A stretch of DNA of 64,000 nucleotides, taken from positions 27,508-91,507 of the IMG/VR virus record IMGVR_UViG_3300043425_001634. One strand, given 5' to 3'. Positions within the stretch are counted from its first letter, which is position 1, and the number at the start of each line of letters is the position of its first letter. This DNA is from a virus. The position numbers and the translations under genes are program-made. Positions 11,955-62,903 of this stretch are shown here, piece after piece. The notes under the pieces are model-generated. The model was not told the DNA's origin. It made no database searches and was given only the letters and a program-made list of their open reading frames with translations.

Positions 11955-13304
11955 ATGGGTACTTTATTAGTTTATAACGGCGCAAAATGGGTTTCGATAG
12001 AACCACACGCATTTAGTCACGCAACTGGCGGCAAGGATGAACTAATGGCGTCTCTAATTGGTGCCGCAACTGAAGATTACGTTGATAGCGTGATTGCTCA
12101 TGTTGCTGATAGCGTGATTGCTCATGTTGCTGATACTGATCCACACCCAGATTATTTGCTCCAATCCGAATCAGATACATTATACGATTCAATCGGTACA
12201 GCTAACGCAGCAATTTTAAGCCATGTTCAATCACCAGATCCCCATCCTAATTATTTGAATCAGTTGCAAGCCGACAGTTTGTATGATTCTTATGGAGCCG
12301 CCGCAAGTGAAATCGGCGATCATCTAACAGCAAATAATCCACACCCTGGTTACTTGACTCAATCGACGGCTAATGCTTTATATGATTTTTTTGGTACGGC
12401 AGACACAAAACTCGCTGATCATATTAGCTTAGAAAATCCGCATCCCATTTACTTAACTCAAGCAGAAGGCGATACAGTTTATTCTGCCTTAAATCATAAT
12501 CATCCTTATGCCTCAATTAATCATAAAACACAGCATGAACCCCTCGGCAATGACTCTTTGGGTGGATATGCTCTTACCGTCCATGCCCATACTGGATCTA
12601 ATATTTCGGGAAATATTTCTGGTAATGCGGCAAATATCACTGGAATCGCAGCGATCGCCAATGGTGGCACCGGAGCAAGTACCGCAGCCCAGGCACTTAC
12701 CAATTTAGGTGCCGCCGCTGCCAGCCACAACCACGCCGCCAGCGCCATCAACTCTGGTACGGTGGCGATCACCAATGGCGGCACTGGGGCATCAACTGCC
12801 GCTGGCGCTCTTACGAATCTTGGTGCAGCACCGGCAACTCATACTCATGCCGCAAGCGCTATTACCAGTGGCACGATCGCGATCGCAAACGGTGGCACCG
12901 GAGCAAGTACCGCAGCCGCCGCTCGTACAAAATTAGGTGCAGCAGCAGCATCGCACACTCATGCTGCATCTTATATAGAGGCAGCAACTTTCCCTTTTGC
13001 AGCAGGGTGGAGTGAATATAGCCCTACTTATAGGTGTTTGATCGAAAAATATGAAGCCATAATGTTTCTTGCTGGCTTGGTAGAAAGATCAGCCACAAAT
13101 CAACCGTTAATTCTTGTTTTACCCACTGAATATATACCTTTCAGCAGAAAACTATTTATGTGTTGGGGTATGATTGGTTCCACTTATACACCTTGTCGTG
13201 TTGATGTTGAGGTCAACGGCAACGTTTCATTAATCTACCCAATAACAAGTGCAGCAATAAGCTGGCTATCACTGGATTCAATTATTTTCAATCAAAGGCA
13301 ATAG
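11955..13304 (+). CDS. tail fibre protein with two repeat families
   Basis: 449 residues. After a short N-terminus (LVYNGAKWVSIEPHAFSHATGGKD) come four units of HPxYLtq...D.LYD (about residues 58-165) and three units of IANGGTGASTAAxALTNLG followed by AA.sHtHAAS (about 233-345), both typical of trimeric phage tail fibres and collagen-like adhesins. The C-terminal 110 residues are unique and probably form the receptor-binding tip (FFPAAGW-like start, then SPTYRCLIEKYEAIMF). An exact direct duplication of GATAGCGTGATTGCTCATGT occurs at about 12084-12130 (DSVIAHVA twice), the raw material for fibre-length variation. Role: host recognition. Confidence 0.85.
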   Translation: MGTLLVYNGAKWVSIEPHAFSHATGGKDELMASLIGAATEDYVDSVIAHVADSVIAHVADTDPHPDYLLQSESDTLYDSIGTANAAILSHVQSPDPHPNYLNQLQADSLYDSYGAAASEIGDHLTANNPHPGYLTQSTANALYDFFGTADTKLADHISLENPHPIYLTQAEGDTVYSALNHNHPYASINHKTQHEPLGNDSLGGYALTVHAHTGSNISGNISGNAANITGIAAIANGGTGASTAAQALTNLGAAAASHNHAASAINSGTVAITNGGTGASTAAGALTNLGAAPATHTHAASAITSGTIAIANGGTGASTAAAARTKLGAAAASHTHAASYIEAATFPFAAGWSEYSPTYRCLIEKYEAIMFLAGLVERSATNQPLILVLPTEYIPFSRKLFMCWGMIGSTYTPCRVDVEVNGNVSLIYPITSAAISWLSLDSIIFNQRQ

Positions 13305-13305
13305 A

Positions 13306-13349
13306 CTCATAAGCCCTTGGTCTCGTGTTCAAATCACGCTTGAGCCATA
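13306..13349 (+). repeat. tRNA 3'-half copy 1 (candidate attachment site)
   Basis: 44 bp matching 20400-20443 at 42 positions. It corresponds to a tRNA from anticodon loop CTCATAA (CAU anticodon) through the T-arm to the acceptor strand. In this copy the T-stem reads TCGTG...CACGC and the acceptor begins TTGAG, so both mismatches weaken pairing. It follows the tail fibre stop by one base, and no 5' tRNA half precedes it. Confidence 0.6.
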
Positions 13350-13351
13350 GA

Positions 13352-13397
13352 CACCGCATCAGGGTACACTGCTGTAGGCTCAATGCGGTGTTTTTTT
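13352..13397 (+). terminator. terminator of the tail fibre unit
   Basis: Perfect 8-base arms CACCGCAT / ATGCGGTG with a 23-base loop, followed by seven T (13391-13397). Directly after the tRNA half. Confidence 0.75.
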
Positions 13398-13461
13398 CAC
13401 ACCATGCTACAACTTTGCTACATTTTTTGTACTTTGTTTTGTAGTTAATCAAAATATTAAT

Positions 13462-14898
13462 TCAAGGAGCCAACTTAGCTTTTTTCGCTCTTTTTTTAGA
13501 ATACCATTCAGCAATTTCAGGCACCCATGCTTGGAAATGCGGCCAAATTAAATCGCAGAGTTTCTGACATTCTAACTGGGCATCTTTTTTCCAGCGCATA
13601 TCTAATAAATGCATCAGCGATCGCACATTTAAAGACATGACCCAATGTTGTCGCACATCAAAGGGAATAATCCCTCTAGCGTGTTCTTCCGCTGCCCCTT
13701 CAGAGATCAGTTGTTGATAGCGTTTTGCTGCTTCTAAACACCAAGCTAAATCGCGATCGCGCTGTGCTTGAGTATAGTCATAACGCTTTCCTTGGCGATC
13801 GGTGTAACTGCCCACGGGACGCAGATAAAATACTTCTTCGAGATCGCGTTTTCCTGTCGCCGCATCAACGATCCGATTTCCCGTATAGCGGTTAGAGTTA
13901 TGCACCACCATACCATTGGCGACAAAATTATGCCAAGGACCTTCTACTTCTAGGTCATAAGTCATTTCAAATCCCAGGAATTCAACGCTTTTTACCTTAA
14001 TTGGATGCGATCGGAGTTTATTCCCTGGTGATTTCGGTTTAGGTTGCCAATTTTTTGCTTCGAGAATCGGTTGATAATTTTTGGCAAACTCCGCCTCTTT
14101 GTTATTTTTCTGTTCTAGAAACTCTTTATTCCGATAAAGTCCATTGCCTGCCACTGCCATGCCATTACATAAGACCCAGCAATTTTTAATCATGTTAATT
14201 ACCTGACCATTTTCGGCTGTCATTAAACCGACCGCTTCCCCCATTGTTTGCCAGCCGAATGTGGTAAATAAGCGGTGATTGGTCGTACAATCTAAGGCTT
14301 TACCATCTTCTAAAGTTAGGCGATAAACAGGTTGAATCCCTTTAGCCATCACATCCTTAATATGTCCGAACTCAAAAAAGCCAGTGGTTTCATTCAGAAC
14401 CCTTAGCCGCATTTTTTTGATTCGGGTTTTGCCATCACGACGATATTCTCCAGTGGGTTCTCCGTTTCGACCTTGTTTTAATCGTTGGCGAATCGCTTTT
14501 TTGCCATTCGTCCATAACTCGTAAAGTTCCGCAATTTTGATTTTGCGTAAACTGCCACTAGCATGAACAAATGTCACCTCAGTATTTCCCGCCAGACACT
14601 GCACGTCGAAAGAAATTCCTACGCGGTGAGTTCTAATTTGCTGCATCACACTATGAGGAAAATATCCACAATTAAAAACAATGGCAGGGTGTTCGCAGCT
14701 ACCAAAGTGTCCGCGATCGCCTGCCAATAATCTTTTTACAGCAATTTCTCCGCACTTGCTTTCTGATGGCCATTTGTCCAACTTAGATAACCACTCATCT
14801 ATTACATATTCTTCGCTGTAATCCTGGTGCATTGCTGCATAAATAATTTGCTGAGGATTCGCAGCTTTAGATAGCACTTCTACTCGAAATTTTTCCAT
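13462..14898 (-). CDS. thyX: flavin-dependent thymidylate synthase interrupted by an intein
   Basis: Converts dUMP to dTMP using FAD and methylene-tetrahydrofolate. The 478-residue frame is a 244-residue ThyX host (1-100 and 335-478) plus a 234-residue intein. The ThyX signature is split: RTHRVGISFDVQ at 89-100, then after the intein SNRYTG, together giving the RHR..S.N..S.RY-type motif that binds FAD and dUMP. The rest is typical (MSLNVRSLMHLLDMR near the C-terminus). It joins tmk, nrdJ and mazG-like genes of this window in dNTP supply. It is divergent from the gene at 14947 over 48 bases. Confidence 0.92.
   Translation of the reverse strand: MEKFRVEVLSKAANPQQIIYAAMHQDYSEEYVIDEWLSKLDKWPSESKCGEIAVKRLLAGDRGHFGSCEHPAIVFNCGYFPHSVMQQIRTHRVGISFDVQCLAGNTEVTFVHASGSLRKIKIAELYELWTNGKKAIRQRLKQGRNGEPTGEYRRDGKTRIKKMRLRVLNETTGFFEFGHIKDVMAKGIQPVYRLTLEDGKALDCTTNHRLFTTFGWQTMGEAVGLMTAENGQVINMIKNCWVLCNGMAVAGNGLYRNKEFLEQKNNKEAEFAKNYQPILEAKNWQPKPKSPGNKLRSHPIKVKSVEFLGFEMTYDLEVEGPWHNFVANGMVVHNSNRYTGNRIVDAATGKRDLEEVFYLRPVGSYTDRQGKRYDYTQAQRDRDLAWCLEAAKRYQQLISEGAAEEHARGIIPFDVRQHWVMSLNVRSLMHLLDMRWKKDAQLECQKLCDLIWPHFQAWVPEIAEWYSKKRAKKAKLAP
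13897..14598 (-). other. intein coding region within thyX
   Basis: Residues 101-334 of the ThyX frame. It starts with Cys (CLAGNTEVTF, splicing block A), has block B around DCTTNHRLFTTFGW with the conserved T..H, and ends with block F/G YDLEVEGPWHNFVANGMVVHN, followed by extein Ser. The linker holds CWVLCNGMAVAGNGLYRNKEFL, like the helix-bearing segment found in cyanobacterial inteins, but no LAGLIDADG or full HNH motif. The homing nuclease therefore seems lost or degenerate. Confidence 0.88.
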
Positions 14899-14946
14899 AA
14901 ATTAGATATAATAAAACAAGAAGTTAAAGTTATTTTAGTACGAATC

Positions 14947-15432
14947 ATGGATAAAGCACAAGAGATTTTACACAGTTTAGAAAAATTAATTAAATGGCGA
15001 CGCGGGCAATCAAGATGCAAGCACTCTAAAAGCATTAGAGAAGGTAGTGTATTGTGCGAAGAATGCGGATTTCTTCGCTTGCCTGTGGTCACAACATACC
15101 CGTCACAATGCAAAAAATGCGAACAACAACTTTCTAAGGTTGATGCAAGGGGTATATACTGTCCAGTTTGCAATTCTTACGAAAACTGGTTCTGCGCTCC
15201 AGAATTGCTCGTAGAAAAACACAGAGAATCAATTAAAGATTTTGTTGTCAGATGTCTGGATAACTATCCAGAACAAGAAGACTTTGCAAAAAGAATGGGA
15301 TGGCCTAATTGCAGCGATCGCCAATTGGTTTGGTTGGCAAGCTTTCTCAACGAACAAACGATCGTTGAGTCAATCTTAACTTCTCACAATAACGAAATCA
15401 CTTCGCCGATTCCCCGAAAAAAAATCAGTTAA
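14947..15432 (+). CDS. cysteine-rich, zinc-ribbon-type hypothetical protein
   Basis: 161 residues with pairs CKH, LCEECGF, CKKCEQQL and YCPVCNSYENWFC, enough for two zinc sites in residues 24-92. The C-terminal half (EDFAKRMGWPNCSDRQLVWLASFL) is helical. No family recognised. No strong ribosome-binding site before the ATG at 14947. It is divergent from thyX and ends before a long perfect hairpin shared with the convergent gene at 15558. Confidence 0.65.
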   Translation: MDKAQEILHSLEKLIKWRRGQSRCKHSKSIREGSVLCEECGFLRLPVVTTYPSQCKKCEQQLSKVDARGIYCPVCNSYENWFCAPELLVEKHRESIKDFVVRCLDNYPEQEDFAKRMGWPNCSDRQLVWLASFLNEQTIVESILTSHNNEITSPIPRKKIS

Positions 15433-15485
15433 TTTTAGCAATTTTTATTTACCATGCAAGCAACTCAATATTTTACAAATACAAC

Positions 15486-15531
15486 CCTGTCAGCACCCAA
15501 GGTAATGCGACTCACCTTGGGTGCTGACAGG
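15486..15531. terminator. long perfect bidirectional hairpin
   Basis: 18-base perfect arms (15486-15503 and 15514-15531) with a 10-base loop, between two convergent genes. Flanking A/T runs allow termination in both directions. Confidence 0.75.
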
Positions 15532-15557
15532 ATTTTGTCAAAATTTATATTTTTATA

Positions 15558-16311
15558 TTAATCCATAAAACATCCACATCCGCCCAAGTCAAACAAATCT
15601 AGCTGAATTTCAGAATTATTCACCTGCTCACGCAAATTCGCTAAAGAAATATCTTTTAAAATGGTAACTGGTTTTTGCAATAAATTTTGCATTTCTTTTT
15701 CGTGATCTTCCCATTCAAGAAACCTTTCTGGAAAGTATTTTAGTAGTTTTCGCCATTGTGCTTTTCCGCCTCGAACACACGCTCCTCCGCAGTTATTGTG
15801 CGGAAATCCTTTGCTATAAAGTAAAGGCAAGCAAATTCCTAGTTTGCTAATTTCATGCTGGCACTGGAGTTTATCCCAGTAAGGCGGATCGCAAAGTGGA
15901 GCAAGCACATCCCAGGGCTCCCAGGACGATTTAATCTTAGACAGTCTGTGAATCTCACTCCAGTCAATTCCTACAATTAATTTAACTGAAGTATCACAAT
16001 TATTCTGTACCCAATTAAGGCAAGTTTCCTGTTTTAGGACGTGGCTACATGGAGCAATTCGACTATTTCCAAGCCATCGCTTATCTTTAAAAACTTGTTG
16101 CGGAGTTCTTCCGTCCGAAACAAAACAAAGAGGAATTAATGTTTTTTTTGCTGAACTCATCGATAAAACGATATAAATCTGGATCTTCTATTTTTGTGTC
16201 AGCAAACAATAAAGTGATTTGAGTCGTTTTTGCTGTTTCTAGCAATTTTAATACAGAAGCGGCAGACCCTACTCCTCCGCTAAAAAAAACTACATATTTT
16301 TGTTCTATCAT
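15558..16311 (-). CDS. PP-loop (PAPS reductase-like) protein, split by a frameshift
   Basis: Two frames form one protein. The first (16311 to about 16145) carries the ATP PP-loop VVFFSGGVGSAA and the LLFADTK..DPDLYRF segment. The second (15558-16160) carries SDGRTPQQVF, GNSRIAPCSHVLK, GIDW, APLCDPPY and GFPHNNCGGACVRGGKAQW, in the order seen in phage PAPS reductase/sulfotransferase-like proteins. They switch at an A8 tract (16142-16149); seven A would restore one frame. Near its C-terminus is QLDLF, a beta-clamp-binding motif, then a GCGC cysteine pair. Likely adenylates and thiolates a nucleic acid or small substrate; the substrate is unknown. Confidence 0.75.
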
Positions 16312-16407
16312 GTTTTCTCGTTTAAACTTTATCAAATATTTTAGCACATAAAATCCCACCATTCCATTAATAACAGAAAGGTTTAATGGAATTTTATCAG
16401 CGGCCAA

Positions 16408-19400
16408 CTATACCGATTCAAAAATTTTCGGAGTCAGTCCAAAAGATTGGCAAATTTCTGTCAAAAATTCTTGAATAAATGAGACAAAACCAGAGGGATC
16501 TAGCCATTTTGCCGCCACCAGCATCTCCTTAAGTCTATCAATTCCATATTTTTTGATAGCAGAGGCAACAAATTTAGTGGTACAAAGCACATCTTCTTCT
16601 ATTGTTTGATGAGCCAGATGCTCCCAATGTTCGCCATAAAATTCCAAAGCCAGGTTGGTCAAGGCTTCAGTTGTATCTTCTGTTTGTTTAATTTCGCTAT
16701 ATATACTGTCTAATAGCGAAATTAAACAATTTTTCAACGCCTTAAATCCACCAAAAGCTTGGGCAATTTGACTGATCCGCCCTTTCGTCACTCCCACAAA
16801 ATCTGCTACCTGCTGACAGGTTTCTGCACCCGCCTTAATCGCCTCCCCAATTTTCCGCTTGAAACGATCAACTATTCCTAGGCATTCAGGACTGAGTGAT
16901 TCCAGATCAACAACCTCGACTTTGTAACCAAGGGGAGATAAGTCAACATCAGTAATTACCCATATAGTTATATTTTCCTCGCGCAAATTCGCTCTTGGGC
17001 GGCCAATAGCCTGTTCGTATTCAATGTAAATTTTTTCAAGCAAATACTGATTTAGCTCATCTTCAGAAGGAAGATGAACAAAAAGAAGGTGAAACTCGCT
17101 TTCTACTGATGCGAGATTTTGTGCTGGCGTCAAAGTCAAGATAAGATCCGTCACGCCTTGCTCGTAGAAATAATTTGTTCCGCGACTGTGACTGCTAAAA
17201 AAGTATCGATCGTCGCCTAATTTTTTGCTGCCGATAATCGCAGCCTTGGGGCATTGCTGTAAAATTGCTTCCTTAGCCGCTTCGATCCGGCGCGATTGAT
17301 CTGCCCCCCGGTGCAGATAGGATTTGAGAGGAATTTGCTTAATTATTAAATTTTTTGATTTTTCTGTTTCCTGGCAAATAACAAAAATTTCGTCTGGGCC
17401 GCATCGTAAGATGGCCGCCAAGCGATCACGTGAAAGCGTAGCATCAGAGAAAATATTTTTTTCAGCCTCTCTTGCTATTACAGGGATGCGATCATTGAAT
17501 AGATCGATCATTAGACTTCGACGGCTAACATGAAAATGCCCTATTTTTTGCCCTGTGAGAATCGCAAAAAAGTGATGCAACCATTGTTTTGTGAGTTTTT
17601 CCGCTTGGGATAACTTTTCTTGGGTAAAGGCGTGTCTTAATGAGATCGCCTCTTTTCCTGTTAATTCACTGCCGTCGAAAGAATCGTTCAGAAAATCTAG
17701 CTTTGGAGAAATCGCCTCATAAACTTCCTTGAGTTCTTCATGTGTAAATTTTCCCATTAAATCTTTGACATTGAATGATTCAATGATCTTGGAGTGAGGC
17801 ATCCCAAAGCGGGAGTTGTCTTCGGAAATTATTTTTCTGAGAATCTTGACTAACTTCCCGATTTCAAATGCTCTTGACACTGATTGAAACGATTGCAGGA
17901 TTTCAGTAAAAAAATTGTCCAACAGATCCAAGTATCCAGCAGAATCTACTTGTTTTACGGATGCAATTAACTCAGTAAAGTGATAAAAGCCATGCTTTTG
18001 ATAAATATCAGCAATAAAGCTACATACTGGTAAAGGCGTCTGAGATGATTGAGCTAAATAATTCCACAATTTCTCGAAAAACTTTACTCCCATTTCCTTT
18101 GCAGTCACCGACAAGTCATGCGCTTGGCGCAGATTTGATACCATTAACTTCATGCAAGATTTGAGCGTGTTAAAATCACCAAACTTGCCAATAATTTGAT
18201 TGCTGATATCGCTTGAAGTTGCCGCATCAAATCTTAGCGAGTCTATTACATTGAAGTTAATATCGCAAAAAGTTTTTTCTAAATCTTCCAGCGATACACC
18301 AATAGAATGGACTATCGGGACTGAACCAAATTCCTCCCAATAAAGCAAGCTACCCAGGTCTTTTCCTTGTTGCGATTTTGCATAAGGGAAAGATTCACCG
18401 TCAAAAGCCAATTCTTTGGGCTGGGGCAAGGATTGAGGGTGGATAATTATAGCGGACTTACCCAGACCTTCTCTCCGCTGATAAATGTAATTGGGATAGT
18501 CGCCAGCAGATCCCTTAATTTGAGGTGATTTGCAAACATTAAAATAAGGGCACGATACACAGCCAATTCTCGAACTATCCGCATTCTCGATCCCCGCAAT
18601 CCTTAATGCCGTGAAAATTTCAGGAACGAAGCAACTGGGGGGTGCCGCCAATTGATCCCCTTGCTTCGCAACGCGGTATTCTCCGGTGGCTGTCTTTGTT
18701 ACTCCTTTGTGTCGGGAGTCGATCCGTGTGACACTTTTCAATCCTTCTACTGTTACGTTCCGTGGATCTTGAGTGACAAAAATGATTCGACTGGCACCAA
18801 AATACTCTCCGCCAAGTTCAATCATTTCCGCTGCGGTGTAGCTTTTTCCTGTCCCGGTCGGGGAAATATCTAAAATATATTTTTTTTCAGAAGCTAAAGC
18901 CGCTTCAATTGCTGCGATTCTTCCGCCCTTTGGAAAATAAAGATCGACAAAAGATGGCTTGCGAATAAATGCTTTCCGTTCGTTTTTTGCTGCAACAACA
19001 ACTTCTTCTGTCGGGTATAATTTTTTCAGAGATTTGGCTAGTTGTCTCTGATATTTTTCTTCTTCTTCTAGTAATTTTTCGACCTTTAACCCACACTTAA
19101 CTGCGGCATCTTTGAATTCGCCGACAGATAACCAGCGCACTTTTTGTTCCCAAGTTGCTGTTTCTTCGCCAAGATCAACTAACCAGTCATCTGGAGATGG
19201 AATTAGGTTGCCGTTTAACTGGCCGTAATCGGCAATCACAATCTCCAAGAAATTGTTTTCTGAGTTTCCGATCGCCTGAAGCTTTTGGATTTGCCCCCAG
19301 GTTCTTTGAGCCACTTGGGGATTCCCTAGGCTGTTCGCGTCAGCAAAAATCCCAAGTTTTTTGGGATGATACTTGCGAATATAGCTTCTAATTTGCGCCT

Positions 19401-20277
19401 CTCCGCTCGTCCAATTACCACCGGCTGCACCAATTAAGGTTCGCTCTGTTTTTAAAAATACAATATCAGTTTTTAAAAACCCTTCAGTGAGCAACGGAAA
19501 ATCTGGCTGGTCTCCGACCATGATCGCCAGGGGTGACTCCACTGCACCTTCGGTAGAGACTTTAAGTTTGTATTTTCCGCCACCAGATAACCACTTGTAT
19601 TTGCCGATCTTGTTTTCGGTGCGGATTTGTGCCGCGACAACTTGCCCGTATTGCCGAACCGGGCAAAGAAAACCGGGATCTGCTATTCTAAATTCCCCGC
19701 CAAAAATTCCTGGGAATTCTGTCCCCGATACGCGATCGCCGGGGTTGATCGAGACATAACCAAATTCTTTGATCTGAGATTCGCTCAGACCTCTCTTGGT
19801 TAAATCATTAAAATGAATATCCGATAATCCAAGCTGTTGTTGAATTTTTTTATAATTTCTATCGCGATCATGGGTGTTTTGAATCTTAATTTTGGTCGGA
19901 TCTAGCTGGACGTATGTTTTAATTTTTGGCTTGGGAATAAGATCACCACTGTTTTTGGGGCGCTCATATCCTCCATCCTTCAACGGTAACGGCAATCCAA
20001 GTAAATCATGGGCTCTTTCAATTTGCTCTTTCCATTCCGAAATACCACACAGCAATCCCACTAATTGAGAAGGAAACCACGCCTCTTCGCAAGTATGGCA
20101 ATAGATGTGAGGCGAATCATTGCTTGCATAAAGATAAGCACTGTAATGCCTATCTTCGTGTTGCGGACTCGGACATCGACAAGAGCGACCTCTTGTTTCC
20201 ACTCCTAAAATATCTAGGAGCCGGGGAAACATTGTATTGAGGTTTTCATTGCATCTATCAAAATCAAGTAACGGCAT
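16408..20277 (-). CDS. primase-helicase fusion replication protein
   Basis: The ATG at 20277 (MPLLDFDRCNEN) is preferred to a TTG 17 codons earlier. About 1289 residues. Visible in order: a CHC2-like zinc finger (CRCPSPQHEDRHY, then HIYCHTCEE, about 33-65); a TOPRIM-like region (LLTEGFLKTDIVF, then KLGIFADANS); Walker A SPTGTGKSYTA near 470; a possible Fe-S or zinc cluster CVSCPYFNVC; an acidic Walker B-like LLYWEEFG; a helicase motif VI-like EQAIGRPRANL; and a C-terminal HTH (QVADFVGVTKGRISQIAQAFGG). This layout matches primase-helicase proteins of cyanobacterial plasmids and phages. It probably primes and unwinds at the phage origin. Confidence 0.8.
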   Translation of the reverse strand: MPLLDFDRCNENLNTMFPRLLDILGVETRGRSCRCPSPQHEDRHYSAYLYASNDSPHIYCHTCEEAWFPSQLVGLLCGISEWKEQIERAHDLLGLPLPLKDGGYERPKNSGDLIPKPKIKTYVQLDPTKIKIQNTHDRDRNYKKIQQQLGLSDIHFNDLTKRGLSESQIKEFGYVSINPGDRVSGTEFPGIFGGEFRIADPGFLCPVRQYGQVVAAQIRTENKIGKYKWLSGGGKYKLKVSTEGAVESPLAIMVGDQPDFPLLTEGFLKTDIVFLKTERTLIGAAGGNWTSGEAQIRSYIRKYHPKKLGIFADANSLGNPQVAQRTWGQIQKLQAIGNSENNFLEIVIADYGQLNGNLIPSPDDWLVDLGEETATWEQKVRWLSVGEFKDAAVKCGLKVEKLLEEEEKYQRQLAKSLKKLYPTEEVVVAAKNERKAFIRKPSFVDLYFPKGGRIAAIEAALASEKKYILDISPTGTGKSYTAAEMIELGGEYFGASRIIFVTQDPRNVTVEGLKSVTRIDSRHKGVTKTATGEYRVAKQGDQLAAPPSCFVPEIFTALRIAGIENADSSRIGCVSCPYFNVCKSPQIKGSAGDYPNYIYQRREGLGKSAIIIHPQSLPQPKELAFDGESFPYAKSQQGKDLGSLLYWEEFGSVPIVHSIGVSLEDLEKTFCDINFNVIDSLRFDAATSSDISNQIIGKFGDFNTLKSCMKLMVSNLRQAHDLSVTAKEMGVKFFEKLWNYLAQSSQTPLPVCSFIADIYQKHGFYHFTELIASVKQVDSAGYLDLLDNFFTEILQSFQSVSRAFEIGKLVKILRKIISEDNSRFGMPHSKIIESFNVKDLMGKFTHEELKEVYEAISPKLDFLNDSFDGSELTGKEAISLRHAFTQEKLSQAEKLTKQWLHHFFAILTGQKIGHFHVSRRSLMIDLFNDRIPVIAREAEKNIFSDATLSRDRLAAILRCGPDEIFVICQETEKSKNLIIKQIPLKSYLHRGADQSRRIEAAKEAILQQCPKAAIIGSKKLGDDRYFFSSHSRGTNYFYEQGVTDLILTLTPAQNLASVESEFHLLFVHLPSEDELNQYLLEKIYIEYEQAIGRPRANLREENITIWVITDVDLSPLGYKVEVVDLESLSPECLGIVDRFKRKIGEAIKAGAETCQQVADFVGVTKGRISQIAQAFGGFKALKNCLISLLDSIYSEIKQTEDTTEALTNLALEFYGEHWEHLAHQTIEEDVLCTTKFVASAIKKYGIDRLKEMLVAAKWLDPSGFVSFIQEFLTEICQSFGLTPKIFESV

Positions 20278-20399
20278 ATTGTAATTTACCTGTAATGTGT
20301 TGACAACAAGATAAACGGGACAAGGCAAAGATTAAGCAGTGATAATTTTAGTGAAAAATTTTATTGTTCCCACAAGAGATTCCTTAGACTTCTTTAGTC

Positions 20400-20443
20400 C
20401 TCATAAGCCCTTGGTCGCGTGTTCAAATCACGCCTGAGCCATA
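20400..20443 (+). repeat. tRNA 3'-half copy 2 (candidate attP/attL)
   Basis: 44 bp from anticodon loop CTCATAA through T-arm GCGTG-TTCAAAT-CACGC to acceptor CTGAGCC, then A. The T-stem pairs perfectly here. It lies 124 bp before the integrase gene, the usual place for a tRNA-directed attachment site. A 5' tRNA half is absent, so it is not a functional tRNA. The matching copy is at 13306. Confidence 0.65.
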
Positions 20444-20451
20444 TATACTGC

Positions 20452-20483
20452 AAGCGATCTGAGGAATTTAGATCGCTTTTTTT
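20452..20483 (+). terminator. rho-independent terminator
   Basis: Perfect arms AAGCGATCT / AGATCGCTT, 9-base loop, then a T-run (20477-20483). It follows the tRNA half, as at copy 1, but the sequence differs. Confidence 0.75.
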
Positions 20484-20566: not shown

Positions 20567-21658
20567 ATGTCTAACAACAAGCTTACGATTGAAAGTATCA
20601 ATCAAGACCTCAAGGCGGCCAAGATCCGCATCCGCATCTGTACGGTAAAAGAAGGAAATACTTTGTTCTTAAGGGGGACTTTGCCTCCTAAGCCGGGTAG
20701 TGGAAAAGTTGGGGCTTACCAGCAAAGAGTCTCCCTTGGAGTTTTTGCCTCAGAAGTGGGGCTTCAATTTGCAAAAGGAGAAGCAATTAGATTGGCTGGC
20801 CTATTGGATACATATAGATTCTCATGGGAATCTTATCTCCCCGACATTTTCAATGATAGCACAAGTCAACTCAAAAAATGTGGGGAATGGATCAAATTAT
20901 TTGAGGAAGATTTTTGGCAAACGGGGACAAGATGCCGAGTTACCTGGAAGGATTACCGCAAGGTTTTCAAGAAGCTTCCTACTAATGAATTATTGGTTTA
21001 CGATCTTGCAAAAAAAATTATTTTAGAGACAAAGCCAAACACGAAAAGCAGAGAACGTACCACGGATAAAATTGCATCACTTTGTGAATTTGCCGAAATA
21101 CCCGATGCCTCAAATTTGCGCCGTTACCGGGGTTGCTATTCTCAGAGGGGTAAAAATACGCCTATAGTTGTCCCTGCATATCAAGAAATTCTTGATTGCG
21201 TGGATCATTTCCATAATGACTGGTGGCGAAATGCCTTTTGTTTGCAGGCAGCTTATGGACTCAGAAATCACGAAATTTACCACCTGAATTTTGACAAGAT
21301 GCACCAGGGTCTTCTGATTGTCAACAAAAATACAAAAACTGGCTGGCGGGTAGTCCCCAGTTGCCACCCTGAATGGGTGGAAAAATGGGGACTCAAAAAA
21401 TTAACACCGGCGGATATGCCCCAGTCTACCTTGACCGATAATGACTTACTTGGTCGCCAGGTTTGGAAGGCTTACAAGCGATCAAAAGTACCATTTTCCC
21501 CCTATGCTTTGCGCCACCGATTTGCCTGTGACTGTGCCTTACAAAATAAGCCTGTGGCCTTGGCCGCAAAAGTCATGGGGCACAGCTTAGAAACGCATAC
21601 AAAAATTTACCATGCTTTTCTCAGTCAGGATGACTTGCTGAGTGCATGGTATAAGTAA
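20567..21658 (+). CDS. int: tyrosine recombinase / integrase
   Basis: 363 residues. Catalytic set visible: Arg233 (AYGLRNHE), Lys257 (NTKTGW), Arg316 (YALRHRF), His339 (MGHSLE) and nucleophile Tyr348 (KIYHAF). The first His of the usual HxxR is replaced by Tyr313, an accepted variant. The N-terminal part fits an arm/core-binding domain. The gene sits next to a tRNA-3' attachment site and a small excisionase-like gene, so it should mediate integration into and excision from a tRNA gene. AGCAGGAG-type purine runs precede the ATG. Confidence 0.9.
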   Translation: MSNNKLTIESINQDLKAAKIRIRICTVKEGNTLFLRGTLPPKPGSGKVGAYQQRVSLGVFASEVGLQFAKGEAIRLAGLLDTYRFSWESYLPDIFNDSTSQLKKCGEWIKLFEEDFWQTGTRCRVTWKDYRKVFKKLPTNELLVYDLAKKIILETKPNTKSRERTTDKIASLCEFAEIPDASNLRRYRGCYSQRGKNTPIVVPAYQEILDCVDHFHNDWWRNAFCLQAAYGLRNHEIYHLNFDKMHQGLLIVNKNTKTGWRVVPSCHPEWVEKWGLKKLTPADMPQSTLTDNDLLGRQVWKAYKRSKVPFSPYALRHRFACDCALQNKPVALAAKVMGHSLETHTKIYHAFLSQDDLLSAWYK

Positions 21659-25688: not shown

Positions 25689-26200
25689 TTGCTTTTTAGA
25701 TCAATCCATTCACTCAGTTGGATCCATTTGGTAAGGGAAGTTATTTTCTTGGGAAACAGAAAAGTGAATTCTTCCTCTAGGGATGGATTACTGTTTAGTA
25801 AGTTTAGTAGTTTTTCTAAACAACAGAGTTGATCCCATGACTCAAAATAGGCATAGGGAGTACATTGATTAATCATAAAAGAACCGATCTTGCCTTTTGA
25901 CATTTTTAGCTCCCCCTTATCACCTTTCTTTATCAAGGTAATAGTTATCGTTTCTTGCCTGGAATAAGGACATTCCAGCCATTTATCTTTACTTATGTAC
26001 TCTTCTATTTTCCACAATTTGAAGAACAAATAGTATTGCTGAACAGGATCGAGTCCAGTGATACATTTTTCATCATTTAATTTTCGGTTTAGTAACTCCC
26101 AACTGGGGACAGTAAAAACATTCGTGATCATTGCTGTGTGCTGTGTATTCAAAAGTATGTATTGTTGTTTACCAATATCATGGTAGTTTACAGCTACCAT
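25670..26200 (-). CDS. hypothetical protein, paralog of 25218-25688
   Basis: 176 residues from an ATG at 26200; a second ATG (MITNVFTVPSWELLN) is a better match to the paralog start and escapes the hairpin at 26174-26206. Shared features: PSWELLN, QYYLFFKLWKIEEYI, ETITITLIKKGDKGELKMSKGKI, CCLEKLLNLLN, KWIQLSEW. Function unknown. Confidence 0.6.
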   Translation of the reverse strand: MVAVNYHDIGKQQYILLNTQHTAMITNVFTVPSWELLNRKLNDEKCITGLDPVQQYYLFFKLWKIEEYISKDKWLECPYSRQETITITLIKKGDKGELKMSKGKIGSFMINQCTPYAYFESWDQLCCLEKLLNLLNSNPSLEEEFTFLFPKKITSLTKWIQLSEWIDLKSKWDIKE

Positions 26201-26206
26201 GATATT
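26174..26206. repeat. 13-bp inverted repeat over a start codon
   Basis: Arms 26174-26186 and 26194-26206 are perfect complements with a 7-base loop. On the minus strand the first ATG (26200) of the paralog gene lies inside the stem, so the hairpin could hide that start. Confidence 0.5.
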
Positions 26207-26215
26207 TTCTTGAGG

Positions 26216-26656
26216 TTAAGGAATGAAGGATTGTTTTCTGCCCGCTTCAGCTAAAAGATTGACTAAATCTGCTGGGTCGTTTACCCATCCTTCAACGGAG
26301 TTGTCGCTACTGTCGAATTGCGACCAAATGGTCACATACCATTCATAATAATCAGCGAATTCATCTGATTTCGACCATCGGAATTCAAAAATCACTAAAA
26401 CCGGATAAGTGACATCATTTTTTCCTTTTAGTGTACTGATTGATTCTTTTTCTATATCTACTTTGACTTTTCTGCCTGTCACCAAGAACTGATAAAGGTC
26501 TTGACCTATAACACCAGTTAGCATTTGAACCAGCACTTGAGATTCAGCTACTTTCTGACGTTTTTGTCGTTTTTGCTCTAGAATTTCTTGTTCTGTTGCT
26601 CGTTGTGCAGCGGTTTCTATTAACTGTCGAATTGATGAAAATTTTTGGTTTTTCAT
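26216..26656 (-). CDS. hypothetical protein
   Basis: 146 residues. Helical basic N-terminus (QLIETAAQRATEQEILEQKR), then a beta-rich half with EWYVTIWSQF and a closing GRKQSFIP. No family recognised. Same operon as its neighbours. Confidence 0.6.
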   Translation of the reverse strand: MKNQKFSSIRQLIETAAQRATEQEILEQKRQKRQKVAESQVLVQMLTGVIGQDLYQFLVTGRKVKVDIEKESISTLKGKNDVTYPVLVIFEFRWSKSDEFADYYEWYVTIWSQFDSSDNSVEGWVNDPADLVNLLAEAGRKQSFIP

Positions 26657-26685
26657 GGTATAATTTCCTTAATTGTGACCTCTTT

Positions 26686-26731
26686 ATCTCCAAGCAACTA
26701 ATTGCTACAAAAATTGCTTGGAGATTTTTTT
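26686..26731. terminator. intergenic hairpin
   Basis: 12-base perfect arms (ATCTCCAAGCAA / TTGCTTGGAGAT) with a 16-base loop; a T-run follows on the plus strand. Between two minus-strand genes. Confidence 0.5.
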
Positions 26732-26733
26732 AC

Positions 26734-27690
26734 TTAATAAAGCATTTCGTATCCTTGTGACTCGAAATCGTCAAGACCTGCCGAATCTGCTGCTATCGCT
26801 TGGGATCGGCGAACGTAGTCGATTCCTTCTTCTGTCGCTTCAGATTCTTCTGACTTTTCCGCTTTACTCCAGTTGAGATCCCAGCTAGAAACTTGTTCCA
26901 GCATTTCATTTATCTTCACGCGAGACTCTGGGGGCAGTAAAAGGGATTCAAAAGATCCTGCATGATAGCCAGTCATGCAGTAAAGTTTTTTTGAGGCGCT
27001 ACCCGATCCTCGTACCTCAATTTTGTATTGCGGAGCGAATGAAAACTTCGAGAAAAAACCGGTGCTGGTAACGCTTATTTTCCGCTCCGTAGCGTACCCG
27101 CGAAGCAAATCACAGAAGGCAATCTGTTGATCCTTTTTCTTTTCAATCTTTCGTGCAAAAGATCCGAAGTATGCTCCCATTTGGGCGCACAATACGCCCT
27201 TAAAGGTCAGCATTAAAGGGGTATCCTGACAGATGTTATTTTTCGCATCTAAAAATGCGATCGCGTATCGTTGGAGTAGCTGGTGGCTATCTTTATTTTC
27301 TTGATAGTATTTCCACTTTGCTTGATTCATTTTTTCTGGAAATGAATCTTTTTGGTTCCGCGCCTTCATGTGGATATCTCCTATCTTGAGGATACACAGG
27401 CGGGGTGACGCTGATACAAACAGGGGCAAGGTATCTCCACCCTGGAACCGATATTCGATGAGTTCCCACGACTCATCGGCGGCGGTGAATCCGCATTTTT
27501 CAGCATTCTCGGCAGTGATAGCCATCCCTACCACCCGACGAAATTCACCATTCACTTCCACTGGATCGGCTACGACCATAGTCTGCCCATACGGGCGAAT
27601 CCGAACGGACTCAATAAAATCACCGCCAGAGTTGAGATCGTCATAATTGGCTGTAATAGACTTTGTTGTATTGGGCATTGTATTAGGCAT
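26734..27690 (-). CDS. cyanobacterial DUF5895-like protein
   Basis: The start at 27690 (MPNTMPNTTKSITANYDD) has a GAGAAA ribosome-binding site; the longer frame from 27765 is unlikely. About 318 residues: beta-rich N-terminal half (ESVRIRPYGQTMVVADP, WELIEYRFQGGDTLPLF), then helical DSHQLLQRYAIAFLDAKN and TPLMLTFKGVLCAQMGAYFG. From memory this resembles proteins called DUF5895 on cyanobacterial plasmids; that assignment is not checked. Function unknown. Confidence 0.65.
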   Translation of the reverse strand: MPNTMPNTTKSITANYDDLNSGGDFIESVRIRPYGQTMVVADPVEVNGEFRRVVGMAITAENAEKCGFTAADESWELIEYRFQGGDTLPLFVSASPRLCILKIGDIHMKARNQKDSFPEKMNQAKWKYYQENKDSHQLLQRYAIAFLDAKNNICQDTPLMLTFKGVLCAQMGAYFGSFARKIEKKKDQQIAFCDLLRGYATERKISVTSTGFFSKFSFAPQYKIEVRGSGSASKKLYCMTGYHAGSFESLLLPPESRVKINEMLEQVSSWDLNWSKAEKSEESEATEEGIDYVRRSQAIAADSAGLDDFESQGYEMLY

Positions 27691-33221: not shown

Positions 33222-33273
33222 TCGCAAAACTTTGTTAAAATTACAGTTATCACCTACCACTCTGGAGTTACCT

Positions 33274-34410
33274 ATGAAATTTACTTGCAAACAATCTGAT
33301 TTTAATGTAGCGCTATCTGCCGTCAGCCGCGCTATTCCTTCTCAGCCAAGTCATCCGATATTGGCTAATATTTTGATTAAAATAAAAGAAAAACAGTCGA
33401 TTCAAGTGATGGCTTATGACTTGAGTCTGGGTATTTTTGCGACTTTTCTTGCTGAAGTAGAAGACGATGATCGAAGCTGCATTACTTTACCAGCTAAATT
33501 ATTGACTAGCATAGTGTCTCACTTATCTGATGAAGATATTACCTTAGAATCTTTGCCAGGAACAAATATAGTGGAGATTACTAGCTCTACAGGAAAATAT
33601 CAAATTCAAGGTCTGGATGCCGAAGAATACCCCGCCTTACCTGATGTCAACAATCAAAATTCTTTGACGTTACCAGTTGAATTTTTTAATCAGGGATTAA
33701 ATGCTGCATTATTCGCTGTTAGTCCGGATGAAACAAAGCGGGTATTGACAGGATTGCATTTAATTGTTTCTCTCGAAAGATTAGAATTTGCTGCCACTGA
33801 CGGCCATCGACTCGCAATGATTGAGATACCTAGAGATGTCGATTCAATTGAAATGGAAGACGCAGATTTTTTTGAGGCTACAATTCCAGGTCGAGCATTA
33901 AAAGAATTGGCAAAGATAATTGGCTCAAGTAATGCCGAATCTTTGTCCATAGCATTTGAATCAAATCAAATCGCTTTTGGCATTGGAGAACAAAAAATGA
34001 TCAGCCGAATTCTTAAGGGCAAATACCCAGATTATAAGCAATTGATACCCACTCAATTCAATAAAACAGTGACAATTAATCGAAAAAAAATTATTGGCGC
34101 ATTAGAGCGAATTTCGATTTTGACTGCAACTTGTGCTCTTTTGCGTATCAGCGAATCGGATCAGTGTGTTTATGTTACCTCTGAAGCTAAAGATATCGGC
34201 ATTGGAGAAGAAATCGTTTTTGCCCAAGTAACAGGAGGCGAACTAAGTTTAAGCCTTGCCCCTAAATACGCCATTGAATCTTTAAAGCACTTAGAGGCAG
34301 AAGAAGTGCAAATTCATATTAACTCTGCTAAATCTCCAGTTGTTTTTACCCATCTAACTGGAGCAAGTGTAGTTCATCTGTTAATGCCTATCCAATCGCG
34401 ATCGCTATAA
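33274..34410 (+). CDS. dnaN: DNA polymerase III beta sliding clamp
   Basis: The ATG at 33274 (MKFTCKQSDFNVALSAVSRAI) has TGGAG six bases upstream; the frame upstream is not DnaN. About 378 residues with all three clamp domains: PILANILIKI, ATDGHRLAMIEIP (about 173-185), RILKGKYPDYKQLIP and the C-terminal LLMPIQSR. A phage- or plasmid-carried clamp is uncommon and suggests its own clamp-tethered machinery; several neighbours carry clamp-binding QLxLF peptides. Confidence 0.93.
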   Translation: MKFTCKQSDFNVALSAVSRAIPSQPSHPILANILIKIKEKQSIQVMAYDLSLGIFATFLAEVEDDDRSCITLPAKLLTSIVSHLSDEDITLESLPGTNIVEITSSTGKYQIQGLDAEEYPALPDVNNQNSLTLPVEFFNQGLNAALFAVSPDETKRVLTGLHLIVSLERLEFAATDGHRLAMIEIPRDVDSIEMEDADFFEATIPGRALKELAKIIGSSNAESLSIAFESNQIAFGIGEQKMISRILKGKYPDYKQLIPTQFNKTVTINRKKIIGALERISILTATCALLRISESDQCVYVTSEAKDIGIGEEIVFAQVTGGELSLSLAPKYAIESLKHLEAEEVQIHINSAKSPVVFTHLTGASVVHLLMPIQSRSL

Positions 34411-61221: not shown

Positions 61222-61755
61222 TCAAAGCTTCTGCAATTCTTTAAAAAGCTTTAATCTGGTTTTTTCGGATCCGTGCGATTTCACATATAGGCAGTAATCA
61301 AAATATGAGAATCCCTTGATCCTCATGTATTCGTTGGGGTGATCCCTTAAAAGGAGATCGTCCTTTTTTGTCTCTATTAAAGCAATCAAATTTTCTAGCC
61401 TTGACTGCTTTTTAGTTTTTTCCAGTCCTTTTATGGCACTGTTTACTTTCGCCGTGATCGGATCTGAAAGGTCAAAAGCCTTTTTAATACAGTCAGATCC
61501 AACCTTAAATACTAATCCGTCGCTAGATTGTAGGCTGAATTCAAACTTCAATCCGTTACCGCAATAATCGCAGCATCCCACGGGAGTTATATGTCCGTTG
61601 GGGTAAGTGTAGATTTTTTCTTTTACCCCTAGATAGGAGTATGGATATTTGCCTAGTCCCTTTTTCTCGAATGGGTGCAATGCCCCTAGCTTTAACTCGT
61701 CTATGATTTTTTCCAGTTCTTTAAAAAACTGGATTTTTCTTAATTCTTTTGTCAT
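61222..61755 (-). CDS. hypothetical protein with one CxxC pair
   Basis: Start MTKELRKIQFFKELEK at 61755, an ATGA overlap with the upstream stop. About 177 residues. CCDYCGNGLKFEF and GSDCIKKAF could form a zinc site; C-terminal helices. Found with similar layout in phages as far as I recall, function unknown. Confidence 0.6.
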   Translation of the reverse strand: MTKELRKIQFFKELEKIIDELKLGALHPFEKKGLGKYPYSYLGVKEKIYTYPNGHITPVGCCDYCGNGLKFEFSLQSSDGLVFKVGSDCIKKAFDLSDPITAKVNSAIKGLEKTKKQSRLENLIALIETKKDDLLLRDHPNEYMRIKGFSYFDYCLYVKSHGSEKTRLKLFKELQKL

Positions 61756-62903
61756 TCTTTTTTTCCACAATTAACAGTTTTGACTACCATTTTATGATCA
61801 GCGACATTAATAGTGGTTACGGATTTATTTTCTTTACTCATAATTTCATGGGTTTCTATTTCCATCTTTATCATTCCTTTATTGATAGAATGATCAACCT
61901 TCATGGAACCCACTTTTCTAATGGCTTCTAATAAATACCTGGGATTTACAGAAACATTAATCTCAGATTCAATGACCGCAAGGTTAGTTATTGACAATTG
62001 CTGATTTAGATCCATATCCCCGTCAATAATTTTTATGGACAGGGTATCACTGCTTAAGGTGATATCAACAGGATTGTGTTTATATGCTTGACTGTTCGTT
62101 TGAGACAATACTTTGGTTAATAAAATTTTATTAACCAAAAATCCTTTAATATTTAGGCAGTTTATCTCAGGGTCGATCATTAAAGATTTAATGACGTTAA
62201 CGACCGATTCGATATTTTTAATTTCGGCATCCGATCTCTCTGTTTTTACAATCCAATTGCCAATACTCAGTAATTGAATAGAGTGATCTGCCGTGGCTTC
62301 AATCCGTAGTGATTTATCACCATCTTTAACAGATTTGATAAATTCAATTATCAGCGGGTTAAAACTCGCAACACAACCATCCGTTAAGGAATCTGGTAAT
62401 TCATATTTAGCAACTCTATGACCATCACAACTGGCAATACAGCTATTGATTATGTAGAGATTTTTTAACTTAGCTGCTTTGTCGGATTTATTATTGGCAC
62501 GAAATGGCTCTATTAATTTTATGCCGTTTAAAAATTCCTCTAAATTTGTACAGTAATTAGAAAAATTATTGTCAGTAGATTTTACTTTGGTGGTGGGAAT
62601 AAATCTAACTAAGATATCTTGTATTTTTGCCAGGTTTCTGGCAAAAATTGATAGCTCAATACAACTAGATTCGCTGTATTCTGTTGATATTCGCTTAAAT
62701 TTTTCAGCTTCAATGAAAATTGAAAAATTTCTATCAGCAGGTGTCACTATATCGATATTAGCGATATAGCTTATGTTTCCATAAGTAACAACTAAATTAG
62801 GGTTATGTTGATCGATGTTTGTATCGATCTGAATGTATTTGCCATGAGAAGCGAAATTTTCCGCCTCTAGAATTTTGAAAAAATTAGCAGTGTTAATTAG
62901 CAT
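61752..62903 (-). CDS. divergent sliding-clamp-like protein
   Basis: 383 residues. The pattern follows DnaN without close identity: domain-II-type SCIASCDGHRVAKYELP (compare ATDGHRLAMIEIP in the dnaN here), LIIEFIKSVKDGDKSLRIEA (compare kal/elak), NWIVKTERSDAEIKNIESV, and domain-III-type INVSVNPRYLLEAIRKVGS. It lacks the C-terminal MPMR-like end. A second processivity clamp or a clamp inhibitor/decoy is inferred. Coupled to 61222 by ATGA. Confidence 0.55.
   Translation of the reverse strand: MLINTANFFKILEAENFASHGKYIQIDTNIDQHNPNLVVTYGNISYIANIDIVTPADRNFSIFIEAEKFKRISTEYSESSCIELSIFARNLAKIQDILVRFIPTTKVKSTDNNFSNYCTNLEEFLNGIKLIEPFRANNKSDKAAKLKNLYIINSCIASCDGHRVAKYELPDSLTDGCVASFNPLIIEFIKSVKDGDKSLRIEATADHSIQLLSIGNWIVKTERSDAEIKNIESVVNVIKSLMIDPEINCLNIKGFLVNKILLTKVLSQTNSQAYKHNPVDITLSSDTLSIKIIDGDMDLNQQLSITNLAVIESEINVSVNPRYLLEAIRKVGSMKVDHSINKGMIKMEIETHEIMSKENKSVTTINVADHKMVVKTVNCGKKE

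Follow-up and report, generated by a model that had tools for sequence, protein, structure and literature searches.

Two copies of a tRNA-Met(CAU) 3' half in the genome of an uncultured tailed phage: a likely attP and an apparent fossil attachment junction

Why does a phage genome carry the 3' half of the same tRNA gene twice, some 7.1 kb apart, with an integrase beside only one of the copies? The question arises from a 64,000-nucleotide stretch of viral DNA (the window; bases 27508-91507 of an IMG/VR record of 91,507 b). A preliminary description, made from the letters alone, had taken the repeats for sites of a tRNA-targeting integrase that enclose either an element inserted in the phage or the fused ends of two tandem elements. 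Our analysis agrees with this reading as far as attachment (att) cores and past integration events are concerned, but not with a separate, recently inserted element.

The terminase, portal, head, tail, endolysin, ribonucleotide reductase and clamp genes of the record identify a tailed phage. Its bases 1-111 recur as 91397-91507, within a 72-bp tandem array, and the contig of a sister strain (IMGVR_UViG_3300043443_000811, 86 kb) reads across the end point of the record; the genome therefore has a circular map of about 91.4 kb. The array (record 1-127 and 91394-91507), where the contig was opened, varies between the sister strains. This one sister strain, found in two contigs, makes up the close relatives of the phage in IMG/VR. 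It is 98.5% identical to the record, carries the same two core copies and differs from the phage at several loci besides the tail-fibre tip described below. Some scans of viral contigs with the integrase, the primase and the tail tips returned the sister alone or nothing, and a 69-kb third contig, considered as a relative lacking the 7.1-kb segment, is actually a sister-strain fragment that ends short of it. No lysogen of the phage was found in the genomes searched. Just left of the window, the phage genome holds a plasmid partition gene; because this actin-type protein is accompanied by a primase/helicase-like protein with plasmid relatives, the phage has, as judged from its genes, phage-plasmid features.

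The two copies (Table 1) are identical at 42 of 44 bases and are the only ones in the record, spaced 7,094 bp apart in the phage and 7,077 bp in the sister; they differ by G/T in the T-stem and C/T in the acceptor. A pattern scan of the genome collection located the 44-bp segment in 39 cyanobacterial stretches. In 37 of them the segment forms the 3' half of a complete elongator tRNA-Met(CAU) gene beginning GGCTCAGTAGCTCAG; it starts with the first nucleotide of the anticodon loop (CTCATAA) and closes with the discriminator base, the extent that had been proposed from the sequence. The host tRNA with a CAU anticodon, which the preliminary description suggested looking for, is accordingly the cyanobacterial elongator tRNA-Met(CAU). 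Agreement over 44 bp with a genuine tRNA gene greatly exceeds what chance would produce, and ARAGORN detected no complete tRNA in the window. A hairpin and T run directly follow each copy, as noted earlier.

Table 1. Coordinates of the att cores and neighbouring features (window positions unless marked as record positions).
Feature	Position	Strand	Basis or remark
Actin-like/actin-type (ALP) partition protein	record 25786-26793 (L043:5786-6793), just left of window		phrog_691, PF21522
Tail-fibre gene	11955-13304	+	phrog_11393, phrog_1591
Copy 1, tRNA-Met(CAU) 3' half (core)	13306-13349	+	match to intact tRNA-Met genes
Hairpin and T run 3' of copy 1 (host-type terminator, diverged)	13350-13396	+	-18.4 kcal/mol, z -3.5
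Copy 1 right flank, homologous to chromosome just 3' of tRNA-Met	13350-13435 (~85 bp)	+	alignments with G003, G002, G402
thyX interrupted by intein	13462-14898	-	90-91% DNA identity to Planktothricoides-clade thyX over 13477-14901
CxxC-rich 161-aa ORF	14947-15432	+	no family
PAPS-reductase/PP-loop-type gene, two ORFs	15558-16407	-	split by 1-bp indel relative to intact 282-aa ORF of sister
1306-aa primase/helicase-like protein	16408-20328	-	weak match to phrog_47; plasmid relatives
Copy 2, tRNA-Met(CAU) 3' half, most likely attP core	20400-20443	+	match to intact tRNA-Met genes
Hairpin and T run 3' of copy 2	20452-20483	+	-14 kcal/mol, z -3.7
Tyrosine integrase	20567-21658	+	PF00589, phrog_1; 64% identical to integrase of G402 tRNA-Met element

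An intact T-stem had been attributed to copy 2 alone. This holds for the phage strain, in which only copy 1 has a broken T-stem pair, but not for the sister, whose copies are both intact. Because of the broken stem in copy 1 of the phage strain, we disfavour a role of the copies as tRNA-like 3' ends of transcripts. With respect to the variable bases, copy 1 has the alleles of the Planktothricoides-clade genome G003 (TTGAGCCATAGACACCGC) and copy 2 of the sister has those of a second genome, G002 (CCTGAGCCATATACACCGCAAG), which suggests, from the few sites compared, that copies 1 and 2 may have been captured separately.

Copy 2 lies 123 bp before the tyrosine integrase, which displays the R..HxxR..GH..Y motifs. 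The nearest integrase that we found belongs to G402, a genome of the same family as Planktothricoides SR001. At that locus, the intact tRNA-Met is on the integrase side, followed by a hairpin owned by the element and then by the integrase gene, and a displaced tRNA 3' fragment lies 10.6 kb off, ahead of the normal chromosomal flank. The integrated DNA (L152:6274-16930) is a plasmid-like element with DUF3987, FtsK/HerA-like, actin-like and XRE genes; its partition protein is 29% identical to that of the phage. Altogether, relatives of the integrase sit directly 3' of a tRNA-Met(CAU) core at four cyanobacterial loci (L152, L153, L155 and L023); host att sites mapped elsewhere, which would have spoken against the preliminary description, were not encountered. 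The integrase family thus goes with tRNA-Met, and copy 2 shares the order and spacing of core, hairpin and integrase with these four other loci, the layout expected of an attP. We conclude from this arrangement that copy 2 is most likely the attP, in line with the original pairing of copy 2 with the integrase. Identity between copy 2 and host genomes extends to about position 20454 (approximately 58 bp shared), beyond which the alignment is no better than with shuffled sequences. Direct repeats that could serve as integrase arms were not clear around copy 2.

Two further resemblances to the G402 element lie near the left end of the window: a 165-bp block (72% DNA identity) common to 957-1120 and L152:15028-15180 and, beside it, an XRE regulator (1246-1521) common to L152:15278-15553. 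A separate 10.2-kb tRNA-Met element in G200 (L155:3400-13690) encodes a TOPRIM/AAA replication-type protein, and its integrase, which belongs to the same family, is frameshifted.

Copy 1 is bordered on its left by the tail-fibre gene, which ends 1 bp before the core, and on its right by DNA of host type. Taken together with the core, the right flank matches G003 at 82% over 136 bp; identity to the tRNA-Met flanks of G002 and G402 is 76-77%. Aligned alone with the host tRNA-Met flank, it scores 73, whereas shuffled sequences reach at most 30; past the hairpin, it agrees with G003 at 34 of 36 bases. Host-type DNA adjoins a hybrid att site here. Since the core is followed by host-clade DNA, namely the tRNA flank and then thyX, the arrangement resembles an old attR-type junction, and copy 1 is apparently a fossil junction that an earlier insertion left behind. 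The host-type flank also holds 11-bp repeats, TTTTGYTACRA, and related sequence is found right of copy 1. With at most one mismatch, this motif, which was picked post hoc, is confined to the tRNA-Met flank locus in the genomes searched. Their resemblance to integrase arm sites means that the host flank, in turn, could be what remains of an element once integrated there. Transfer could have gone in either direction, as host DNA taken into the phage or as element DNA left in the host.

The thyX gene to the right of this flank has 90-91% DNA identity to its counterparts in G002, G003 and G402, confined to the gene (13477-14901), versus 74-76% to those of the rest of the family; between G002 and G003 the difference is 5.5%. 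This difference in identity argues that the phage most likely took its thyX from the Planktothricoides clade of filamentous cyanobacteria, the probable host of this uncultured virus. The ThyX intein and its host-clade counterpart have 93-95% identity, the N-terminal exteins only 77-80% in the alignment, a contrast that may reflect recombination inside thyX. We considered simple specialised transduction of an adjacent host thyX and rejected it: thyX is not near tRNA-Met in G002, G003, G402 or G004, and a single contiguous capture is thus not supported.

The genes of the 7.1-kb segment are broadly those read from the sequence beforehand: thyX with its intein, the CxxC-rich ORF, the PP-loop gene and the protein with a weak primase match. 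The 1-bp indel that splits the PP-loop gene is either a real mutation or an assembly error. The 1306-aa protein has relatives on 94 cyanobacterial plasmid records (tblastn), but it is not a CyRepA1 protein, having no match to NF042913, for which the pSYSA CyRepA1 protein scores 596 bits. It is encoded by the only primase-like gene recognised in the phage, where many ORFs have no family and part of the ORFs were scanned. No integrase gene lies in the segment. The sister holds the segment and both cores at the same 98.5% identity as the flanks. The GC content of the segment is 0.408, against 0.410 elsewhere in the window, and of 85 genome stretches of the same size, 70 are more unusual in their tetranucleotides. 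The segment has no sign of recent independent insertion, because both sisters carry it, its divergence and composition are ordinary and it lacks an integrase; the suggestion of an element recently inserted in the phage is, on the same grounds, not supported as it stands. A relative with an empty site, without the 7.1 kb, was not found in the IMG/VR search. The other earlier suggestion, two fused tandem elements, could still apply if modified, copy 1 then being the old attR-type junction.

A variable tail-fibre tip ends at copy 1. The C-terminal tip (about 12918-13304) is unrelated between phage and sister, and homology resumes at 13306, the first core base; the left join falls among repeated IANGGTGAST stem units. 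Among 388 genomes searched, relatives of the phage tip (37-39%) occur in fibres and fibre remnants of Planktothricoides SR001, with weak matches in two further genomes. We asked whether these homologues stand beside a tRNA core in Planktothricoides; no core is nearby. A tblastn search of the phage collection with the tail fibre gave no match, perhaps owing to low-complexity filtering.

Taking these observations together, we see about an even chance that this is a temperate phage of the Planktothricoides clade with copy 2 as its attP, copy 1 as a fossil junction and the 7.1 kb as a fixed part of its genome. The tyrosine integrase would recombine within the host gene for tRNA-Met(CAU), at the anticodon loop, and, on integration, the 3' half in copy 2 would restore the tRNA, with the hairpin of copy 2 providing the terminator. 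Copy 1 would be a remnant of an earlier history of integration and excision at the same tRNA gene, which could account for its order of tail fibre (phage DNA), core, host-type tRNA-Met flank and clade-derived thyX with intein. Although the 7.1 kb would now be a fixed phage part, the direct cores leave its deletion by the integrase possible in principle. Directly observed are the repeats and their tRNA identity, the link of the integrase family with tRNA-Met, the host-type flank, the affinity of thyX and the conservation in the sister; from these we infer that the integrase acts at copy 2, which core it uses, where crossover takes place and in what order the events occurred. On this account a past integration junction is apparently still readable, from phage gene through tRNA core and host-type flank to a host-clade thyX with intein. 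An att site, the capture of a host gene and a variable tail-fibre tip would thus be tied to one short sequence, and the junction points to the clade in which the probable host of this uncultured virus lies.

Other histories could have produced the two copies. Copy 1, with its arm-like repeats, may instead be the original attP between tail fibre and thyX, with copy 2 and its integrase a newer module common to G402-type elements and the host flank a relic attL of older lysogens. The locus-specific TTTTGYTACRA repeats in the host flank, with related sequence right of copy 1, fit such a replacement, as do the 36 bp past the hairpin, which are better conserved than the hairpin itself, and the integrase, partition gene and XRE block common to phage and G402 element. 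However, the arm motif was selected after the fact, copy 2 offers no clear arm sites to compare and no lysogen through copy 1 was seen, and we regard this history as rather unlikely. We are doubtful that the 7.1 kb represents a CIME-type mobilizable cassette or a tandem-element remnant that entered via a core and could be excised by the phage integrase in trans. Two direct cores bound it, there is no integrase, and the cores carry alleles of two host lineages, suggesting separate captures; but the segment is present in both strains with ordinary divergence and composition, contains the only primase-like gene recognised, has no empty-site relative among those found and is bordered right of copy 1 by host tRNA flank rather than by an element's own end.

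It is improbable, in our estimation, that copy 1 is a live exchange site for tail-fibre tips, at which the integrase or homologous recombination acts on the core and the repeated stem. The unrelated tips of the two strains, the return of homology exactly at the first core base and a left join within the IANGGTGAST units speak for it, yet the tail-fibre gene also ends at this boundary, the strains diverge at several further loci, the comparison covers two tips and the Planktothricoides tip relatives are not beside a core. A long shot of similar standing is that both cores are live, the integrase acting also at copy 1 to excise or exchange the 7.1-kb replication and nucleotide module and to gain tail-fibre tips, with host tRNA sequence as the exchange point; if copy 1 were active, its pair of att sites would give the phage an inherent means to delete or exchange modules. 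Finally, the record is a metagenomic contig and repeats can be misjoined, but the distinct sister strain, on a separate contig, has the same copies with the same surroundings at a spacing of 7,077 bp, and an assembly chimera or chance repeat is hardly credible.

If copy 1 is indeed a fossil junction, it invites comparison with specialised transducing phages such as lambda dgal, in which one side of a hybrid att junction is host DNA. Copy 1 has this form. Unlike lambda dgal, the phage keeps a second, probably functional att, and in the relatives checked thyX, the captured gene, does not neighbour the att site on the chromosome. The G402 element has the same core as the phage and the same core-hairpin-integrase order, together with related forms of the integrase, the ALP-type partition protein and the XRE block; it differs in its length of 10.6 kb, its lack of phage structural genes, its DUF3987 and FtsK/HerA-like genes and a single pair of cores at its ends.

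Fragments of tRNA genes are signatures of genomic islands in Islander, which distinguishes an anticodon-centred class (PMC4383910), and the anticodon loop is used as the 7-bp overlap by tyrosine recombinases (PMC8371274). As in class A of Islander (PMC4383910), the probable attP of the phage is a tRNA 3' fragment that starts at the anticodon loop beside a tyrosine integrase, and integration would restore the tRNA. The phage thus combines what marks anticodon-type tRNA-targeting elements, a host tRNA 3' fragment, an adjoining tyrosine integrase and integrase relatives at the same tRNA, but it has two cores, and copy 1, the additional one, borders on host-clade DNA at its right. CIMEs and tandem accretion have been described at tRNA or ssrA genes (PMC5704250, PMC3146451). 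The 7.1-kb segment is like a CIME in being flanked by direct att cores without an integrase of its own, next to an element with an integrase of that specificity; it differs in lying inside a phage genome, with no empty site found and no evidence of mobilisation.

Two other features of the phage genome deserve mention. A single ORF of 3510 aa (L042:2854-13386) has no Pfam family at gathering score, and there are two sliding-clamp-like proteins, encoded at window 33232-34410 and 61752-62903 (phrog_947).
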